From contig CAMYWU010000012.1 in NCBI GenBank assembly GCA_947302895.1, positions 1 through 15,067 on the forward strand: DNA of 15,067 nt. The letters run 5' to 3'. Below the pieces are notes generated by a model. That model saw nothing but the letters and a program-made list of their open reading frames with translations, was not told the DNA's origin and ran no database searches. The position numbers were made by a program, and so were the translations under genes. Source of the stretch: an uncultured Clostridia bacterium. Lineage in GTDB: Bacteria; Bacillota; Clostridia; Oscillospirales; Acutalibacteraceae. Shown piece after piece: positions 6,651 through 15,067 of the stretch (position 1 is the stretch's first letter; each line of letters opens with the position of its first letter).

Positions 6651-7317
6651 TGATAATATATCCCATTCCTCTTACTGTTTTAATAATGCTCGGCTCTGCC
6701 GGATTATCTTCAATCTTGTTGCGAAGGCGCTTGATATAAACGGTCAGCGTGTTGTCATTAACGAAATCGCCCTCAATATCCCATATGTCCTCAAGAAGCT
6801 TGTTTCGCGTGAGAACGATGCCCCTGTTGTTGAGCATAGTGAGAAGCAGGCGGTATTCCATAGCGGTCAGTATAACTTCCTCACCGTTTTTGAACACTCT
6901 CGCCTCGTTGGTGTTAACGGTTACATTTCCGATATGCACCGTGCCGTCCGCGCTATCTTTACTATAGCGGCGGAGTACGGATTTAATTCGCGCAAGTAGC
7001 TCCTTAAGACGAAACGGCTTTGAAATATAATCGTCCGCACCGAGGTCAAAGCCCATAACCACGTTAACCTCATCGTCATATGCGGTAAGAAATATCACGG
7101 GATAATCGCCCTGCGCCTTAACCGCCTTGCAGATGTCGTAACCGCTGCCGTCGGGCAGGGTCAAATCGAGAATATATAGTGAAAAAGTGTTGCTGTTTAT
7201 TATGCTTTTCGCTTCGGCAATACTTTTAGCGAGCGTAACGGAATAACCCTCGCTTTCAAGCGAATAAGTCAGCGCAACGCCGATTGCCTCGTCGTCTTCG
7301 AGTAAAAAGATGTTCAT
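6640..7317 (-). CDS. OmpR-family response regulator (225 aa)
   Basis: DNA-binding partner of the kinase. The receiver domain (about 1-113) has the acidic pair E7/D8/D9, phospho-acceptor D51 (LYILDLTLPDGSG), switch T78 and conserved K100 in SKPF. The C-terminal winged helix (about 128-223) ends in the typical IIKTVRGMGYIINEK. The ATG at 7317 follows GAGGTGA at close spacing and gives the normal family length. It is the first gene of the regulator-kinase-ATPase-permease cluster. Positive autoregulation is suggested by a box directly upstream of its promoter that recurs before the ABC genes. Confidence 0.95.
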   Translation of the reverse strand: MNIFLLEDDEAIGVALTYSLESEGYSVTLAKSIAEAKSIINSNTFSLYILDLTLPDGSGYDICKAVKAQGDYPVIFLTAYDDEVNVVMGFDLGADDYISKPFRLKELLARIKSVLRRYSKDSADGTVHIGNVTVNTNEARVFKNGEEVILTAMEYRLLLTMLNNRGIVLTRNKLLEDIWDIEGDFVNDNTLTVYIKRLRNKIEDNPAEPSIIKTVRGMGYIINEK

Positions 7318-7335
7318 TTTATCACCTCGGCTATC

Positions 7336-7383
7336 ATTTTAACACATTAGTTAATTAGTTTCCATTACAATTCTGTCACATAA
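7336..7383 (-). promoter_or_regulatory. Promoter and candidate regulator box upstream of the response regulator gene
   Basis: On the - strand, TGGAAA (7364-7359) and TAAAAT (7341-7336) are 17 bp apart, and the -10 has an extended TGT. The 20-bp box ATTACAATTCTGTCACATAA (7364-7383, + strand letters) abuts the -35 on its upstream side. That is the usual place for an OmpR-type activator helping a weak -35. The same box, with 2 differences, recurs at 5646-5665. Confidence 0.5.
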
Positions 7384-7407
7384 AAAACGGACGGCAATGC
7401 CGCCCGT
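7381..7407 (-). terminator. Rho-independent terminator of hpf
   Basis: On the - strand the arms ACGGGCGGC and GCCGTCCGT form a 9-bp GC-rich stem with one G-U pair and a 3-nt loop, followed directly by TTTTTT. It lies 12 bp after the hpf stop codon, and its T-run merges into the regulator box of the next gene. Confidence 0.9.
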
Positions 7408-7418
7408 GAGTATATTTC

Positions 7419-7967
7419 TTATTCGCAGATGATTAAGCCGTAGCCCTTCTTTCTCTTATAAACAACCTTTGTTTCACCGTCTATTCCAAGGAAAATGAAG
7501 AAGTTGTGGCCGAGCATTTCCATCTGAACGATTGCTTCATCATCGGTCATCATATTCGGAGTTATTGTTTTCTTTCTTGTTATGTCAACACTATCAAAAT
7601 ATGCCTCGTCGAAATTATCCATTGAAACCTCGTCGGAAAGCTCATCAATCGCCATTGCGATTTCATCAATTCCGCCCTTGCGCTTTTTATCAACGAAATA
7701 GGTCTTGAGCTTGCGAAGCTTTCTCTTCAAATCATCAACTGCCGCATCAATTGCAGGCTCGATTTTTCTCTCGAAGGATTCGCCTCTGATGAAGGAGCCG
7801 AAATGCTTAACTGTTATATCGCAGCTGTATCCCTCTTTTTCCTTTTTAAGAGTTACATCAAAAGTGGCATTTTCGGGAAGCATTTTTTCAATTCTGTGGA
7901 GCTCCTTTTCAATTCCGTCTTTTGCGCCCTGCTTTAAATCAAAGCCTCTTGCAGTAATGTTAATCAT
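7419..7967 (-). CDS. hpf: Long-form ribosome hibernation promoting factor
   Basis: It binds the 30S subunit in slow growth, blocks the tRNA/mRNA path and drives 100S ribosome dimers. The N-terminal S30AE domain (about 1-97) starts MINITARGFDLKQGAKDGIEK and has the basic helix DDLKRKLRKLKTYF. A variable acidic linker (about 100-130) follows. The C-terminal dimerisation domain (about 131-180) contains KKTITPNMMTDDEAIVQMEM, GHNFFIFL and YKRKKGYGLIIC. The 182-aa length is normal for long HPF of Firmicutes. The ATG at 7967 follows AAGGGGGT. It appears to be a single-gene unit with its own terminator. The family call is firm. Confidence 0.95.
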   Translation of the reverse strand: MINITARGFDLKQGAKDGIEKELHRIEKMLPENATFDVTLKKEKEGYSCDITVKHFGSFIRGESFERKIEPAIDAAVDDLKRKLRKLKTYFVDKKRKGGIDEIAMAIDELSDEVSMDNFDEAYFDSVDITRKKTITPNMMTDDEAIVQMEMLGHNFFIFLGIDGETKVVYKRKKGYGLIICE

Positions 7968-7998
7968 AATATTACCCCCTTGGGATTATTTTTTTACA

Positions 7999-8027
7999 AT
8001 TATATTATATTCCCAAAAGACAACTAA
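7999..8027 (-). promoter_or_regulatory. Weak candidate promoter of hpf
   Basis: Two overlapping TATAAT hexamers are present on the - strand (8009-8004 and 8004-7999). With a 17-bp spacer the second has only TTAGTT as -35, a poor match. The gene may use an alternative sigma factor; GGGAAT just upstream of the -10 is vaguely sigma-B-like. Low confidence in the exact element. Confidence 0.3.
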
Positions 8028-8035
8028 TAAAAGTA

Positions 8036-8064
8036 TTGAAATATGAATATTTATTTGATATAAT
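8036..8064 (+). promoter_or_regulatory. Near-consensus + strand promoter with no downstream ORF
   Basis: TTGAAA (8036-8041) and a perfect TATAAT (8059-8064) are 17 bp apart, with an extended -10 TGA. The expected start is G8071. No convincing + strand gene follows, only the two-hairpin module, so the likely product is a short RNA. It is divergent from the hpf promoter region. Confidence 0.6.
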
Positions 8065-8070
8065 ATTAAT

Positions 8071-8150
8071 GTTGCCGAGAGCTTACGCCCTCGGCAATTC
8101 TTTTATCCTCAAGCGTATACAGGGGTCAGACCCCTGTATACGATTTTTGT
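8071..8150 (+). ncRNA. Candidate ~80-nt two-hairpin small RNA beside the RAYT gene
   Basis: From the predicted start G8071, a transcript would fold at once into hairpin A (TTGCCGAG 8072-8079 with CTCGGCAA 8090-8097). A short linker ending CCTCAAG follows, then the 29-bp palindrome (8114-8142, 14-bp arms) and ATTTTTG TTTTA, which together look like a terminator. It ends at the stop codon of the convergent RAYT gene, so read-through would be antisense to the transposase mRNA. The same layout without a good promoter lies inverted on the other side of the gene. The RNA is inferred from promoter plus terminator; it could instead be just a repeat module beside a promoter. Confidence 0.45.
8114..8142 (+). 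repeat. 29-bp REP-like palindrome, copy 1
   Basis: The arm CGTATACAGGGGTC is followed by a central A and its exact reverse complement. The central base gives the palindrome an orientation (A read on + here). Flanks are CCTCAAG on the left and ATTTTT on the right, the same as copy 3 read on the - strand. It lies 9 bp beyond the RAYT stop codon. Confidence 0.95.
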
Positions 8151-8151
8151 T

Positions 8152-8898
8152 TTATTTATTTTGGGCTATTCTTTGCGAAACACCGGTTAATCTCATTATC
8201 TGGCGCACCGCTATACCCTCTTTATGAAATATTCTTATAAATTCACGTTGTTTATCAATTGGAACACGCTTAAATTCTTCCGGTGAACAACAACCCGATA
8301 TCTCTTCAATAATGTTTTTTGCCTGTGTGTCTGGCATCCTTGCTTCTGCTTCATCAACGATATCAAGATGAGAATCACTGCTTAATTCGTTATGTATTCT
8401 GACAAACTCATTAACTCCGATAAGCTCAAGCGCAAATCCGGTGTTTACAAAAGTATTGCTCATAAAATAACTGTTATAGCTGCTGAATTCATAATCCGAG
8501 CAATTGCTTACCATTCCTGCTTTTATAGGATTTTGATGAATGTACCTTAAGGCTGAAATAGAGTATTCATCATCGTTAACAGGAGCGCTATTGAATCTGC
8601 CCTGGAACACCCCACCGATTCTGTCGTATTTCAGATTGTACCAATATATAAAACTGTCGCCAAATCTTTTAAAAATCTTATCTATCGTCTCGTCGCCTTC
8701 TTTAATCAAAAGATGAACATGATTTTTCATCAAACAATATGCGTATAATTCAAATCTGCAGATATCTTTTGTTCTGGAAAGAACGTTTAAAAACATATAG
8801 TAGTCATCTTTATCAAAAAACACTTGTTGCTTGTTGATTCCCCTTAGCATAACATGGTATATGCCAGTCTCACTTTTGGCTCTTTGTTTCCTTGCCAA
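8152..8898 (-). CDS. REP-associated tyrosine transposase (RAYT), Y1/HUH single-strand endonuclease (248 aa)
   Basis: Y1 transposases of the IS200/REP type cut and join single-stranded DNA at hairpins. The N terminus ARKQRAKSETGIYHVMLRG is typical of the family. The HUH motif is H60-V-H62 (MKNHVHLLI). The likely catalytic tyrosine is Y119 in LRYIHQNPIKAGM, after the family stretch GGVFQGRF. A C-terminal helix-turn-helix (GIAVRQIMRLTGVSQRIA) ends the protein. Nothing appears broken, so it may be active. I place the start at a TTG (8898), because GGAGGTGA sits just upstream and the family starts there; an ATG at 8922 would lie upstream of that ribosome site. A near-consensus promoter precedes it, and the palindromes on both sides are its probable substrates. 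Confidence 0.92.
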   Translation of the reverse strand: MARKQRAKSETGIYHVMLRGINKQQVFFDKDDYYMFLNVLSRTKDICRFELYAYCLMKNHVHLLIKEGDETIDKIFKRFGDSFIYWYNLKYDRIGGVFQGRFNSAPVNDDEYSISALRYIHQNPIKAGMVSNCSDYEFSSYNSYFMSNTFVNTGFALELIGVNEFVRIHNELSSDSHLDIVDEAEARMPDTQAKNIIEEISGCCSPEEFKRVPIDKQREFIRIFHKEGIAVRQIMRLTGVSQRIAQNK

Positions 8899-8920
8899 AT
8901 CTTCACCTCCAGACATCAGC

Positions 8921-8949
8921 ATTATATCATCATTAATTCACCACGTCAA
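8921..8949 (-). promoter_or_regulatory. Near-consensus promoter of the RAYT gene
   Basis: On the - strand TTGACG (8949-8944) and TATAAT (8926-8921) are exactly 17 bp apart, with an extended -10 TGA. The start would be near 8914, giving a leader of about 16 nt with GGAGGTGA. This is unusually strong for a transposase gene. Confidence 0.8.
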
Positions 8950-8964
8950 CTCCCCCTCTCAAAG

Positions 8965-8993
8965 CGTATACCGGGGTCAGACCCCTGTATACG
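8965..8993 (+). repeat. 29-bp REP-like palindrome, copy 2
   Basis: Same palindrome as copy 1 with central A on +, and one arm mismatch (C at 8972 instead of A). The left flank CTCAAAG is kept, but hairpin A and the right T-tract are missing. It forms a tail-to-tail pair with copy 3, separated by 25 bp. Confidence 0.95.
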
Positions 8994-9012
8994 TTGTTAT
9001 ATCTGCAATTTT

Positions 9013-9080
9013 AAAAATCGTATACAGGGGTCTGACCCCTGTATACGCTTTGAGGTTGCCGAGGACGGGGTCCTCGGCAA
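9013..9080 (-). terminator. Two-hairpin module downstream of the ABC exporter operon
   Basis: Read on the - strand, hairpin A (TTGCCGAGGA/TCCTCGGCAA, 10-bp perfect stem, 9056-9080) begins 4 bp after the exporter stop codon. CCTCAAAG and palindrome copy 3 follow, then ATTTTTAAAATT. The second hairpin plus T-tract can terminate the operon. Hairpin A is also followed by ATTTTTAATT on the + strand, so it may block antisense transcription too. Confidence 0.6.
9019..9047 (-). repeat. 29-bp REP-like palindrome, copy 3
   Basis: A perfect copy with 14-bp arms. The central T on + shows that it is inverted relative to copies 1, 2 and 4. It is flanked by CCTCAAAG and ATTTTT on the - strand, like copy 1 on the + strand. 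Confidence 0.95.
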
Positions 9081-9084
9081 ATTT

Positions 9085-10881
9085 TTAATTCTGATATTTC
9101 TCTGCCTGTAAATTGAACATGTAAGCGTAAGTACCGTTAAGTTTCATTAGTTCCTCGTGGCTTCCCTGCTCGATTATCTGGCCGTTTTCCATAACATAGA
9201 TAACATCGGCATTAACCGTTGTTGAAAGTCTGTGGGAAATGAAGATAACGGTTTTATCCTCAGCGGCATTCATCATTGCCTGATTGAGATTATATTCTGC
9301 AATCGGGTCGAGGTTTGCTGAAGGCTCATCAAGTATAACATAGGGGCAATGCTTATAAAACGCCCTTGCAATTGCAACCTTCTGACCTTCGCCGCCGCTC
9401 ATCATCATTCCGTCATCATCAAATTCACGAAGCAGATTTGATTTCATTCCGTTTGGCAGTTCCTTTGAAAAGCCGCTGTTTTGAAGCGCTTTTTCGGCAT
9501 TCTTTTCCTCAACATTATAATCAAGCGCAACATTTTCGCCGATGGTTGCGGCAAAAATCTGGAAATCCTGAAAAACTGCTGCAAATCTGTCCTTATGCGA
9601 CTGGAGCGTTTCCTCCCTAATATCCTTTCCATCAATCAGAATTTCGCCATCGGAAACATCATAGAGCCTCATCAGAAGATTGGTGAGGGTTGTTTTTCCT
9701 GCCCCGTTATACCCGACGAGGGCTATTTTTTCATTTGGTTTGATAGTTAAATTGATGTTTTTAAGAGTTTCATGGTCGTTGCCCGGATATGTAAACGAAA
9801 CATTCTTAATCTCAATTGTTTTGGGCTCGGCGGATTTTGTTTCATTTTCACCGCCGAAAATCTTTCTGCCCCTTGAAAGAAACTCCCTGTATTTTTCTAT
9901 AAGCTTTGCCTGCTCTGAGAAATTACGAACAACACCGACAGTTAAAAACGAAAACGAGGTTGCAATTGAAAATGCACCGTTAAAGGTTGCAACAAAATCG
10001 CCTGCCGACAGGGTTTTTGTTTTTAAAACGCAGTATCCCAGATAGAGCGGAAGCAAAAACATAAAGCCCAGAATCTGAACGCCCGTTTCCTGGAAGAAAT
10101 AGATTAAATCAATCTTTCTTACATATTTTCTCTGGTTATCAATAACCGCATCGGCGGCTTCATCGTATTTATTCAGCAGAAGCGGCTTTATGTTGTTCAT
10201 ACGAACTTCTTTTGCATAATCCTGCAGATAGAAAACTCTTGCAAAATAATCGGCTCTTCTGTGGAGCTTGTTGTTTTCAATCTGTCTTTTGGATTGAAGC
10301 ATACCTATTTTCTTGCTTACGGGAGTAAAAATTGCAACAACCGCAAGAATGATAACAAGGCAAATCGGATCGATTGCAAAGAGAATTGAGCCTATTGCAA
10401 TAAGCGAGAAAACCTCGCCGATATATCCCTGAACAAGACCGAGAACTCTTGTTATTCTTCCGCCCGAGGAATCGATAACAAGAATGAAATTATTATAAAA
10501 ATCGGGGTCGTCGTAGCTCTCTAAATCAAGCTCCTTCGCCTTTTTGAAAAGCATTTCAAGTATGCCCGAGGAGAGCTTTTCAAAATTAACGCTGAAATAC
10601 AGCTCCCTGTACAGCGCATTTGCAATCTCGTTAAACAGCAATATCGCCGCAATTGCAACAACGGCATAAACTATTTTCATTTTATCATCGCCGCTTGAAA
10701 TAACATCAATAACGTATTTAACGCCGATAACGGAAATAAGCCTTGTGGGAAGCCTTGTTAAAACGCCGAAAATACACTCACATATTACAAGCACGGGCGA
10801 GATTTTAAACATTATTTTAAGAAAATAGAATACGTTTGAAACGATTGAATGCTGAAGCTTATCAGTTCTGAAATCATGCAT
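9085..10881 (-). CDS. ABC exporter half-transporter, second gene of pair (598 aa)
   Basis: Fused membrane-ATPase exporter. The N-terminal ~340 residues form the six-helix membrane domain, with a PDFYNNF-type coupling region typical of this subfamily. The ATPase follows with Walker A GYNGAGKTT (390-398), Q-loop FQD, signature MSGGEGQK (494-501), catalytic E519 in VILDEPSANLD and switch H550 (ISHRLS). The ATG at 10881 (MHDFRTDK) overlaps the upstream exporter's stop by 8 bp (ATGCATGA) and has AGGAG about 10 nt before it; a longer frame to 10983 would run deep into the neighbour. Both subunits keep the catalytic Glu, so neither site looks dead. They probably form a heterodimer. The substrate (drug, peptide or lipid) is unknown. 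Confidence 0.93.
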   Translation of the reverse strand: MHDFRTDKLQHSIVSNVFYFLKIMFKISPVLVICECIFGVLTRLPTRLISVIGVKYVIDVISSGDDKMKIVYAVVAIAAILLFNEIANALYRELYFSVNFEKLSSGILEMLFKKAKELDLESYDDPDFYNNFILVIDSSGGRITRVLGLVQGYIGEVFSLIAIGSILFAIDPICLVIILAVVAIFTPVSKKIGMLQSKRQIENNKLHRRADYFARVFYLQDYAKEVRMNNIKPLLLNKYDEAADAVIDNQRKYVRKIDLIYFFQETGVQILGFMFLLPLYLGYCVLKTKTLSAGDFVATFNGAFSIATSFSFLTVGVVRNFSEQAKLIEKYREFLSRGRKIFGGENETKSAEPKTIEIKNVSFTYPGNDHETLKNINLTIKPNEKIALVGYNGAGKTTLTNLLMRLYDVSDGEILIDGKDIREETLQSHKDRFAAVFQDFQIFAATIGENVALDYNVEEKNAEKALQNSGFSKELPNGMKSNLLREFDDDGMMMSGGEGQKVAIARAFYKHCPYVILDEPSANLDPIAEYNLNQAMMNAAEDKTVIFISHRLSTTVNADVIYVMENGQIIEQGSHEELMKLNGTYAYMFNLQAEKYQN

Positions 10882-12703
10882 ACTGCTCTTTCTCCTCTCC
10901 CTTATAGCGTGAGGCCTGAAGAGTGAACATATTGCAGTAATCCCCGCCGCTTTCCATAAGCTCGCTATGGGTTCCGCTTTCAATAACAGTTCCGCCCTTT
11001 AAAACGAAAATATTATCCGAAAGAACAGCGGAGGAAAGCCTGTGGGAAATATACAAAACAGTTTTGTTCTTCGTTGCCTTGATTAAGTTTTCATACATAT
11101 TGTATTCTGCAATCGGGTCGAGCGCCGAGGAGGGCTCGTCGAGAATTGCAACATCAAAATCCTTTGCAAACATTCTTGCAACGGCGGTTTTCTGGGTTTC
11201 ACCGCCCGAAAGCCCTGCGCCCGTTTCATCAAATTCCCTTGTTAAAACGGTATCCGCACCGTTTGGCAGCGACTGAATTTTATTCCAGACTCCGCTCTGA
11301 ATAAGCGCCTGCTTTGCAATTTCTTTTTCTTCAGCCGTGCAATCGTGGCAGATAACATTTTCATTAACCGAAAGCGCAAAGGTTTTATAATCCTGGAAAA
11401 CGGTTGCAAAACGGCTGTGAAGGCTTTCAACATTGTATTCCTTGATGTTTCTGCCGTTATAGAGGATTTCGCCCTCTGTAGGGTCGTAGAATCTAAGAAG
11501 AAGCTTAACAAAGGTTGTTTTGCCTGCACCGTTAACGCCGACTATTGCAACAGTTTCGTCCTTGTTTATTTTAAGGTTTACATTTTTAAGAGAATACTTC
11601 TTTGCGGAGGGATATTTAAACGAAACATTCTTAAATTCAATGCTTTCAAACTCCTCTGCTTCCAAGTCGCCCGATACAACCTTTGATTCATAATCAAAGA
11701 AATCACGAAGATTCTGGAAATAAAGCGCAACATTTGAAAGCGAAGCAAGTGAATCCGCAATCTGACGGGTTGTTGTTCTTACGGAGTTTATTGATGATAA
11801 AACAACCGAAAAGCCCGAAATATCAAGTCCGCTGTTGTTGATAAACTGATAGGAAGCAAAGGAATATGTTCCGACTATTGGAATAAGCTCGCCGAAAAGG
11901 GAGCTGAGCATCGTATAGAAAAACAGCTTCCAGCCATAGTTTTTGATAATGCGGATATTATCCTCAACCGCTCTTCTGAAACGGTTTATAATAACCGAAA
12001 AGATATTTGAGGTTCTTATATCCTTTGAAAAATCCTTGAGGAAAACCGTACGCTGGGAATAGTTTTTAATACGGTTATTGGTTGTCATTGAATAATTGCG
12101 CTTATACATAATCTTGCTTTTAATAATTTCAAAAGCAAAGATGAAAAGCACGGGGGAAAGGAAGATGAGATACGCAGGGTCGATGGATGAAACAATTCCG
12201 ATAACAAGGAAAAACGATATAACCGAGCCGATGAGATTTGAAATATCCATACAGAACATAAAGAAATAGCTATGGGTTATAATCTCGGTCGCTCTCTGAT
12301 ATTTATCGTAGAATTCGGGGTCCTCGTAGCAGGAAACGTCAACATTTGCAGCCTTTTCAAAGATTAAATCATTAAGCCCCTTTGTTACCTTTTTCATTCC
12401 GACATTCTGCAAATAATCGCAGGTTATGATTATAACCTCATTTATAAGCGCAACGCCGAGGAAAATCAAAAGAACTTTAACGAAGTATTCAAAGCTTGCA
12501 TTTCCCTCAATAAGATTCAGAAGAACCTTGAGGAATAAAACTCCCTGAATAAAAAGCGAGAATATTGAAAAAGAGGTTTGAGCCAGTATTGCCGAAAGCA
12601 TAAGGGTTTTATCAGCCTTAAAGCAGATTTTAATTGCAAAAAGGATGTTTTTCATAACGGGAACCTTTATATCCTCATGCAGCGGCATCCAGTGCCTTGC
12701 CAT
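10874..12703 (-). CDS. ABC exporter half-transporter, first gene of pair (609 aa)
   Basis: First gene of a two-gene exporter operon. The membrane domain (about 20-340) has six predicted helices and the subfamily motif SCYEDPEFYDKYQRA. The ATPase shows Walker A GVNGAGKTT (389-397), Q-loop FQDYKTF, signature LSGGETQK (498-505), catalytic E523 in AILDEPSSALD and H554 (YISHRLS). The ATG at 12703 (MARHWMPLHED) is chosen because GGAGGTGA ends 5 nt before it; a GTG at 12712 lies inside that ribosome site. The LSGGE form of the signature, shared by both subunits, replaces the common Q by E. A clear promoter sits about 30 bp upstream. Export of an amphiphilic compound is the general expectation for this family. 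Confidence 0.93.
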   Translation of the reverse strand: MARHWMPLHEDIKVPVMKNILFAIKICFKADKTLMLSAILAQTSFSIFSLFIQGVLFLKVLLNLIEGNASFEYFVKVLLIFLGVALINEVIIITCDYLQNVGMKKVTKGLNDLIFEKAANVDVSCYEDPEFYDKYQRATEIITHSYFFMFCMDISNLIGSVISFFLVIGIVSSIDPAYLIFLSPVLFIFAFEIIKSKIMYKRNYSMTTNNRIKNYSQRTVFLKDFSKDIRTSNIFSVIINRFRRAVEDNIRIIKNYGWKLFFYTMLSSLFGELIPIVGTYSFASYQFINNSGLDISGFSVVLSSINSVRTTTRQIADSLASLSNVALYFQNLRDFFDYESKVVSGDLEAEEFESIEFKNVSFKYPSAKKYSLKNVNLKINKDETVAIVGVNGAGKTTFVKLLLRFYDPTEGEILYNGRNIKEYNVESLHSRFATVFQDYKTFALSVNENVICHDCTAEEKEIAKQALIQSGVWNKIQSLPNGADTVLTREFDETGAGLSGGETQKTAVARMFAKDFDVAILDEPSSALDPIAEYNMYENLIKATKNKTVLYISHRLSSAVLSDNIFVLKGGTVIESGTHSELMESGGDYCNMFTLQASRYKGEEKEQYA

Positions 12704-14578: not shown

Positions 14579-14593
14579 TCTCTTCCAAAAAAA

Positions 14594-14622
14594 TGTATAC
14601 AGGGGTCAGACCCCCGTATACA
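14594..14622 (+). repeat. 29-bp REP-like palindrome, copy 4 (diverged)
   Basis: Central A on +, like copies 1 and 2. The outermost pair is changed from C-G to T-A, which keeps pairing, and one arm base differs (C at 14615 instead of T). It forms a tail-to-tail pair with copy 5, separated by 36 bp. No hairpin A or transposase accompanies it. Confidence 0.95.
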
Positions 14623-14658
14623 TAAAAAAGAAAGCCGCAATATAAGCGCATTTAGCCC

Positions 14659-14687
14659 CGTATACAGGGGTCTGACCCCTGTATACG
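14659..14687 (-). repeat. 29-bp REP-like palindrome, copy 5
   Basis: A perfect 14-bp-arm palindrome with central T on +, so inverted relative to copy 4. It begins 1 bp after the feoB stop codon on the - strand, so the mRNA end of feoB would carry it as a stable hairpin, which may protect or terminate the message. Confidence 0.95.
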
Positions 14688-14688
14688 T

Positions 14689-15067
14689 TTAAAGGAGGAG
14701 ATTGATTAAAGCGCAAAGGATGAAGCCGAAGGAAAGCGGAAGCAAAACCGATATTACTGTCCATTTGGCGCTTTTGGTTTCTTTGAATATTGTTAAAAGA
14801 GTTGTTGCGCAGGGAAAATGAAACAGCGAAAAAATGCAAACGCAAATTGCGGTTTTTGCACTCCAGCCGTTATTAACCAGAACTGCGCTGAGCTGGCTGA
14901 GGGAGGAATAATCGGAAAGCACTCCCGACGAAAGGTAGGTCATAAGCGCTATGGGCAAAACAATCTCATTTGCAGGAAAGCCGAGAATAAAGGCAAGCAG
15001 AATAACGCCGTCCATTCCCATAATTCTTCCAATGGGGTCGAGCGCTCCTGCCATATGATTCAGTATG
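14689..15067 (-). CDS. feoB: Ferrous iron transporter FeoB, C-terminal part (5' end outside window)
   Basis: The frame is open to the window edge (residues before MAGALDPIG continue as ILNH), so only the last ~125 residues are seen. They match the FeoB C-terminal membrane region by eye: LDPIGRIMGMDGVILLAFIL, GFPANEIVLPI, GWSAKTAICVCIFSLFHFPC and TLLTIFKETKSAKWT, ending in a last helix. FeoB carries Fe2+ across the cytoplasmic membrane, with an N-terminal GTPase that would lie beyond the window. The conserved HFPCATTLLTI stretch is present. The TAA at 14689 lies right next to a palindrome copy. Confidence 0.9.
   Translation of the reverse strand, partial: ILNHMAGALDPIGRIMGMDGVILLAFILGFPANEIVLPIALMTYLSSGVLSDYSSLSQLSAVLVNNGWSAKTAICVCIFSLFHFPCATTLLTIFKETKSAKWTVISVLLPLSFGFILCALINLLL

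Follow-up and report, generated by a model that had tools for sequence, protein, structure and literature searches.

What does a near-consensus promoter serve when it points into two hairpins, with no long gene behind it, beside a transposase gene? The question is raised by positions 8036-8150 of the window, by which we mean the whole stretch of 15,067 nt that was analysed. The first-pass annotation had read this segment as an orphan promoter making a terminator-ended small RNA from the target repeat of the neighbouring RAYT transposase. The promoter and both hairpins are a real feature, and comparison across the genus ties the promoter to its other neighbour, the hpf gene. At slightly under even probability, we read the feature as one half, facing outward and without a gene, of a rigid pair of back-to-back promoters, in which competition between the arms would tune hpf and a hairpin would cap the outward RNA.

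A promoter pair at hpf

Positions of all elements are listed in Table 1. The annotated near-consensus promoter, TTGAAA and TGaTATAAT separated by 17 nt, was confirmed, and no plus-strand ORF among those listed (80 aa or longer) starts within 8071-8150, in agreement with the annotation of a stretch without a long reading frame. The promoter is not an orphan, because it stands back-to-back with the promoter of hpf. Promoter-like sites number 43 in the window, compared with 36.0 expected by chance (sd 5.7), and two of them combine 11 of 12 consensus matches with TG: the site described here and the RAYT gene's own promoter at 8949-8921. Since the count is close to chance, the match alone proves little, and it is conservation throughout the genus that counts. 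Elsewhere in the window, a plus-strand frame at 1156-2343 encodes a 395-aa protein starting MAGIKVFVSSTCYDLSMLR, with no NCBIfam match.

Table 1. Elements of the window around the outward promoter (strand: +, plus; -, minus;., none assigned).
Feature	Position	Strand	Remarks
Outward sigma-A-type promoter, TTGAAA-17-TGaTATAAT	8036-8064	+	11/12 consensus matches plus TG; in 44/48 readable hpf loci
Predicted start site	8071	+	placed from the -10 element only, 7 nt after it
Shared central box AATAAAAGTATTG between both promoters	8026-8038	.	AGTATT in loci with the unit
hpf promoter -10, TATAAT on the minus strand	8004-8009	-	identical, 23 nt before GTATT, 44/44 loci
hpf, ribosome hibernation promoting factor	7419-7967	-	Pfam PF02482 and PF16321; TIGR00741 above cut-off
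Hairpin A (8072-8097) with T-rich tail	8072-8104	+	promoter-proximal, intrinsic-terminator-like stem
REP palindrome with T-run	8111-8148	.	passenger repeat, possible second terminator
RAYT (Y1 transposase) gene, convergent	8152-8922	-	PF01797; NF047646 71.6 bits, cut-off 80
Inverted REP pair upstream of the RAYT gene	8958-9054	.	
Second hairpin resembling hairpin A, beside the convergent ABC transporter gene	9056-9080	.	
ABC transporter gene	9085-10983	-	beyond the RAYT gene; more ABC transporter genes there

With one query, hpf was found in 50 of the 80 genus genomes. The 30 genomes in which this query gave no match include 19 of the 51 good-quality ones. Two of the 50 loci are broken off, one at the hpf start and the other 113 nt upstream, leaving 48 readable loci, 44 of which have the outward promoter upstream of hpf, the exceptions being L117, L120, L127 and L148. 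Every one of the 44 unit-bearing loci has the hpf -10 (ATTATA on the top strand) exactly 23 nt before GTATT. The predicted start sites lie 74 bp apart in 39 loci and 73 bp apart in five (L017, L019, L020, L129, and L130), TG precedes TATAAT (TGnTATAAT) in 43 of the 44, and the outward spacer of 16-17 nt, the sigma-A pattern and the TG extension are conserved together. Beyond AGTATT, the remainder of the box occurs in two variants across loci. The hpf start is predicted near 7997, and the predicted hpf leader is 28-68 nt long in 42 loci; in the other two, which have an insertion, it measures 193 and 196 nt. The arrangement in all 44 loci is that of a fixed, back-to-back divergent promoter pair, with an hpf arm that lacks a good -35 hexamer. 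It is not a bidirectional promoter with a shared -10, since two separate -10 elements are present, with predicted start sites 74 or 73 bp apart.

A pattern describing the unit (up to one mismatch) occurs once each in 37 of the 80 genus genomes, with no control matches, and comparison of coordinates placed all 37 just upstream of the hpf gene of that genome. Among 394 genomes drawn from the order, the pattern matched three of the four genus members and one of the 390 genomes outside the genus, the latter with one mismatch. Among the named contigs with the unit are those of [Eubacterium] coprostanoligenes ATCC 51222 (L054), with an MFS gene behind the promoter, and of rumen Eubacterium MAGs. In total 24 of 80 named hpf loci have it, as counted with a pattern that misses variants such as the one in G082, which is included in the 44-locus count; none of the distant hpf genes (lactobacilli, enterococci and similar) do.

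In several hpf leaders (e.g. L012, L013, L022), a short inverted repeat, AGGATA..TATCCT or CAGG..CCTG, was noticed by eye just upstream of the RBS. A separate, dispersed structured element of about 165 nt was also encountered (G000:C5:8331-8950, L257; L130; L232-L275). Its core pattern (up to one mismatch) occurs at 45 places in 22 of the 80 genus genomes, with no control matches. Of 44 copies read, 39 end in an AAGGC.A..G.AATT-like sequence with ATG within a few bases, and in 31 a loosely defined Shine-Dalgarno-like motif lies at most 16 nt before the 5' hairpin. The element thus tends to lie between Shine-Dalgarno sequence and start codon, and the genes it precedes are unrelated; they include hpf in G048 and G084 and, in G000, a gene for an Hsp70 (dnaK-like). 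Alignment of 26 of the 44 copies gave 38 predicted pairs, 13 of them with two-sided changes. No Rfam match at threshold was obtained for the copies tried, and a literature search found no description of it. It is possibly an intron-like or mobile leader element, and possibly more novel than the finding at the hpf promoter.

Genes behind the outward arm and constraint on the promoter

The outward arm of the 44 promoter-bearing loci leads into a plus-strand gene in 24, and into a convergent gene, with no gene between, in 18. Two loci were set aside, L020, which runs into the edge of its contig, and L136 (G079), where a GH28-like frame is represented by its start alone and the convergent gene is about 300 nt away. 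The plus-strand genes vary (GH28, sortase-like, DUF218, Na/Pi cotransporter, MFS, Tex), where the best score among the sortase-like calls equals the Pfam cut-off, one call falls below it, and the L012 protein has no Pfam match but is a homologue. At the 18 convergent loci, the facing genes are ABC, epimerase-like, MFS, Ig_mannosidase-domain, aldehyde dehydrogenase, iron-dependent repressor, response regulator and GDPD genes, assigned by homology to the ABC or RAYT proteins of the window or else by Pfam (8 of 8 others). The promoter is directly opposed by an ABC homologue in G053, G006, G012, G089, G047, G088, and G043; in G051 the homologue follows at a distance of about 300 nt. GH28 remnants lie behind the outward promoter, with a convergent gene next, in G081 (L135; 82 bits) and in G079 (L136; frame start only, recognized by eye); they are possible intermediates of gene loss, the one in G081 being counted among the 24 plus-strand-gene loci.

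Mapped onto the hpf tree, for the 46 rows that have a state, neighbour types must have changed at least 17 times when RAYT-plus-ABC and remnants are merged and G079 and G017 are excluded, or 21 times when RAYT-plus-ABC and remnants count as types of their own. Alternation of plus-strand and convergent genes needs at least 9 changes and loss of the promoter at least three events, on a tree with many weak forks, 13 of 45 being drawn open. The outward promoter is kept independently of the downstream gene. Two of the four promoter-less hpf loci have an HGSNAT-type plus-strand gene. G049 has kept hpf but lost box and promoter, and so can do without the unit. A minus-strand ORF of 198 aa opposite hpf in that genome has no Pfam match, and no clear plus-strand gene is seen; this may be a convergent locus after promoter loss.

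Sequence comparison was carried out over 17 convergent loci, L137 being excluded. Pairwise identity of TG plus TATAAT is 1.00 (1088/1088 comparisons), a value slightly favoured by the choice of loci with a -10 match of at least 5/6, although all were 6/6. The hpf -10 is likewise at 1.00 (816/816), followed by the box (0.89), the outward spacer (0.51) and the hpf spacer (0.40); fourfold-degenerate sites of hpf agree at 0.46 (3122/6791). The predicted outward start is G in 88% of these loci. From these values, the gene-less promoter looks to be under purifying selection.

This bears on the possibility that the promoter once served a plus-strand gene now lost, or is a spare one repeatedly reused by incoming genes, and has no present function in this genome. 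Both the assortment of plus-strand genes found behind it and the GH28 remnants in G081 and G079 would fit such a history. A functionless promoter is hard to reconcile with the invariance of TGnTATAAT in the 17 convergent loci against 46% agreement at fourfold sites, and loci facing an ABC gene occur in several group-A branches, which suggests a long gene-less history, with the proviso that many forks are weak. We consider this alternative unlikely.

The hairpins, the hpf arm and the RAYT module

RNA from 8071-8150 is predicted to fold into the two stable hairpins that had been annotated (-38.7 kcal/mol, z -8.3; none of 200 shuffles was equally stable). The first of these, hairpin A, is G+C-rich and is directly followed on its 3' side by the T-rich tail TTCTTTTATC, as in an intrinsic terminator. 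A transcript would therefore probably end near 8104, ahead of the REP hairpin. The annotation of a terminator-ended RNA stands as far as the T-run of the REP palindrome is concerned, but it did not credit hairpin A, which is already terminator-like. Examined as a dispersed repeat, hairpin A was rejected: a pattern with its exact arms matches nowhere in its own genome beyond the two copies in this window. These two hairpins (8072-8097 and 9056-9080), sharing the 8-bp arms TTGCCGAG/CTCGGCAA, frame the RAYT module, and in G002 TTAATGTTGC is present on both flanks of that module (L151).

Hairpins of relatives were scored by a fixed rule, which requires that a hairpin lie in the first 90 nt and, for a tail, that at least five of the 10 bases after the stem be T. 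Among the 17 convergent loci, 16 have a hairpin and 13 a T-rich tail. G085 misses the hairpin rule yet folds with z -4.8, and the T-run is absent by rule in G051 and G078. In G002 the rule chose the REP hairpin, while TTTTTTC follows hairpin A there; in G000 it likewise chose the REP hairpin, which passes. The eighteenth convergent locus, L137, has no hairpin in the first 90 nt. The same rule finds a hairpin in 8 of the 24 plus-strand-gene loci, six of which are four sortase-like and two DUF218 loci.

In the six closest relatives, all of them convergent, the stretch from the box to the -10 agrees at 31-39 of 39 positions, and positions +2 to +41 at only 7-28 of 40 when compared ungapped. The first bases are partly kept, the stem starting with TGTCGG in G007 and G048, near the TGCCG of G000 and G002. 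Hairpins of G053 and G051 are wholly different, and the stems of G078 and G061 are unrelated. In 14 group-A loci with the 5' arm TGC[CT]G, paired changes preserve the stem at positions 4, 7 and 8. Structure and place of the hairpin outlast its sequence, as would be expected for a terminator. Rfam at gathering score gave no match in the 17 loci, and only sub-threshold matches in window 7300-9300. For the raiA-motif RNA in particular, there was no covariance-model match in window 7300-9300, nor any at gathering score in the 17 loci. Neither a conserved RNA sequence nor a known family, by which a small RNA gene would be recognized, was found.

A functional hairpin RNA of about 34 nt, acting in trans or on hpf, would explain why a promoter is retained without a gene, and it could draw on the paired changes that hold the stem behind the common TGC[CT]G arm in the 14 group-A loci, as well as on the partly kept first RNA bases seen in the TGTCGG arm of G007 and G048. 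Past these first bases, however, replacement of the hairpin, complete in G053 and G051, is seen among six close relatives while the promoter stays, the stems of G078 and G061 bear no relation, and Rfam recognizes no family among the 17 loci at gathering score and offers only sub-threshold matches in the window. Such an RNA is accordingly rather improbable in our estimate.

The other arm of the pair is less canonical. In the hpf promoter (window 8004-8038, minus strand), TATAAT is often preceded by GG, and there is no good -35 hexamer. The conserved AATACT just upstream of it suggests an activator or another sigma factor. For a sigma-B/F/G factor, the model matches all 80 genus genomes (63 over cut-off), and its presence is therefore non-discriminating. 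Nor could the central box be upheld as a genome-wide regulator motif, with 8 + 6 occurrences (up to one mismatch) in the own genome versus 9 + 10 for the reversed control.

The outward -10 and the box might instead be binding sites or upstream promoter elements for hpf, with no transcription start of their own. The box lies directly against the -35 region of hpf, and the want of a good hexamer there suggests help from a bound factor. Against this, the sigma-A pattern is conserved in full, jointly with its 16-17-nt spacer and the TG extension and usually with a hairpin immediately behind, and in 24 loci a plus-strand gene is positioned to be driven by this promoter. We regard this explanation as distinctly improbable.

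There remains the connection with the transposase. The REP palindrome at 8111-8148 recurs inverted, 100% identical over 38 nt, at 9013-9050 on the far side of the RAYT gene, and there are further copies in the same genome, where 24 matches were counted over both strands. The Y1 transposase gene is flanked by REP palindromes, as in REPIN-RAYT systems, its score with the NCBIfam RAYT model being below cut-off. Searching the genus for RAYT yielded 31 matches, of which 30 have a locus; some of the loci overlap. REPs lie within 400 nt (exact motif) at eight RAYT loci, of which one is cut on the 3' side and seven are readable. The first-pass annotation had proposed searching related genomes for the promoter and hairpins beside RAYT genes, and had named palindromes kept without them as the pattern that would speak against its RNA gene built from the transposase's repeat. 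This pattern was found in five of the seven loci. The remaining two, G000 and G002, are both at hpf and have the outward promoter plus hairpin A, which are not a regular component of RAYT loci. Conversely, RAYT was not found at 42 of the 44 promoter-bearing hpf loci, reading up to 1500 nt, and G053 has promoter, hairpin and then the ABC gene at the equivalent site, without RAYT. REP and RAYT are passengers at the hpf promoter.

An RNA made from the REP repeat and acting with RAYT, whether as guide, decoy or regulator, is hardly credible. Promoter, hairpin A, REP and RAYT do occur side by side in G000 and G002, but both of these are the hpf locus; most readable REP-flanked RAYT loci (5/7) lack promoter and hairpin A, most promoter-bearing hpf loci (42/44) show no RAYT in the stretch read, and hairpin A should stop the RNA ahead of the REP. 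As a regular RAYT component the RNA gene was rejected, the REP with its T-run being a copy of a dispersed repeat and the promoter tracking hpf, which corrects a tempting RAYT-sRNA reading.

The RAYT proteins at this site in G000 and G002 (window 8152-8922 and L151) are about 67% identical, and hpf 96%. They are sisters in the RAYT tree (92/85), yet hardly closer than other copies. A further REP pair lies at window 14589-14690, and no RAYT gene was seen beside it.

Proposed mechanism and known systems

We return to the preferred reading, a gene-less arm that competes with hpf, in which initiation, termination and competition are what we infer from the sequences. The two -10 elements point apart around the shared 13-bp box, and with predicted starts 74 bp apart, two polymerases should not fit simultaneously. 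RNA polymerase covers roughly -55 to +20. Footprints would thus overlap across both promoters, and competition is to be expected if either arm is busy. Outward initiation would meet hairpin A at +2 and yield an RNA of about 34 nt. Most likely the outward arm is retained because, when busy, it would help to hold hpf low during growth by polymerase competition, and hairpin A because it would muzzle that arm, barring its RNA from running antisense into the convergent gene. The REP copy arrived with the RAYT module and is at most a back-up terminator.

Several observations weigh against this explanation. The unit has been lost in G049 while hpf stays, and in the 24 loci with a plus-strand gene the arm may be kept simply to express that gene. 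No hairpin lies in the first 90 nt of L137, by the rule G085 also lacks one and G051 and G078 lack the T-run, and a hairpin is present in 8 of the 24 plus-strand-gene loci too. Furthermore, the five E. coli promoters tested in PMC12825309 had a basal activity too low for competition. That the promoter is conserved for its effect on the neighbour, its RNA being halted within about 35 nt by terminators that keep changing, and the act of outward firing, not the RNA, setting hibernation-factor expression throughout the genus, is a tentative proposal which we hold possible but short of an even chance.

The genus offers many natural replicates of a seemingly selected promoter without a gene behind it, and a set of natural variants on which the origin of intrinsic terminators immediately at a transcription start can be tested. 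Should the competition model be right, a gene-less promoter would help to set the entry of these Clostridia of gut and rumen into ribosome hibernation, and similar "dummy" arms capped by a terminator could be sought beside other genes.

In the portions of the literature consulted on divergent and bidirectional promoters, REP/RAYT, hpf promoters, raiA RNA and transcription starts of E. coprostanoligenes, no description of the unit was found. The unit can be set beside several systems that resemble it in part. REPIN-RAYT systems consist of a Y1 transposase gene flanked by REP palindromes; the transposase of the window likewise stands between REPs, unlike promoter and hairpin A, which are not a regular part of such systems. 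With the sRNA control of the ISPpu9 transposase reported in Pseudomonas putida (PMC8450116), the common point is RNA-based control at a REP-linked transposase, the difference being that the RNA predicted here would belong to the neighbouring hpf promoter.

In B. subtilis, hpf depends on sigma-H and sigma-B and is switched on at the end of growth, according to PMC12421865, whereas the hpf -10 described here is TATAAT and its conserved partner is an outward sigma-A-type promoter. Bidirectional promoters, as described in PMC12825309, have divergent starts that share one -10 and are most often 18 bp apart, 10 and 23 bp also being common; in E. coli promoters used in both directions, polymerases compete only when one direction is strongly active. 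Like these promoters (Warman/Grainger, PMC12825309), the hpf unit would direct divergent transcription from a small region, with opposing polymerases predicted to exclude each other. Unlike them, it has two separate -10 elements facing away, with predicted starts 74 bp apart. With the back-to-back promoter pairs of ordinary divergent genes it shares the presence of two promoters in one intergenic region. It differs from ordinary divergent pairs in that one arm is gene-less in 18 of 44 loci and usually capped by a hairpin near its start, yet conserved.
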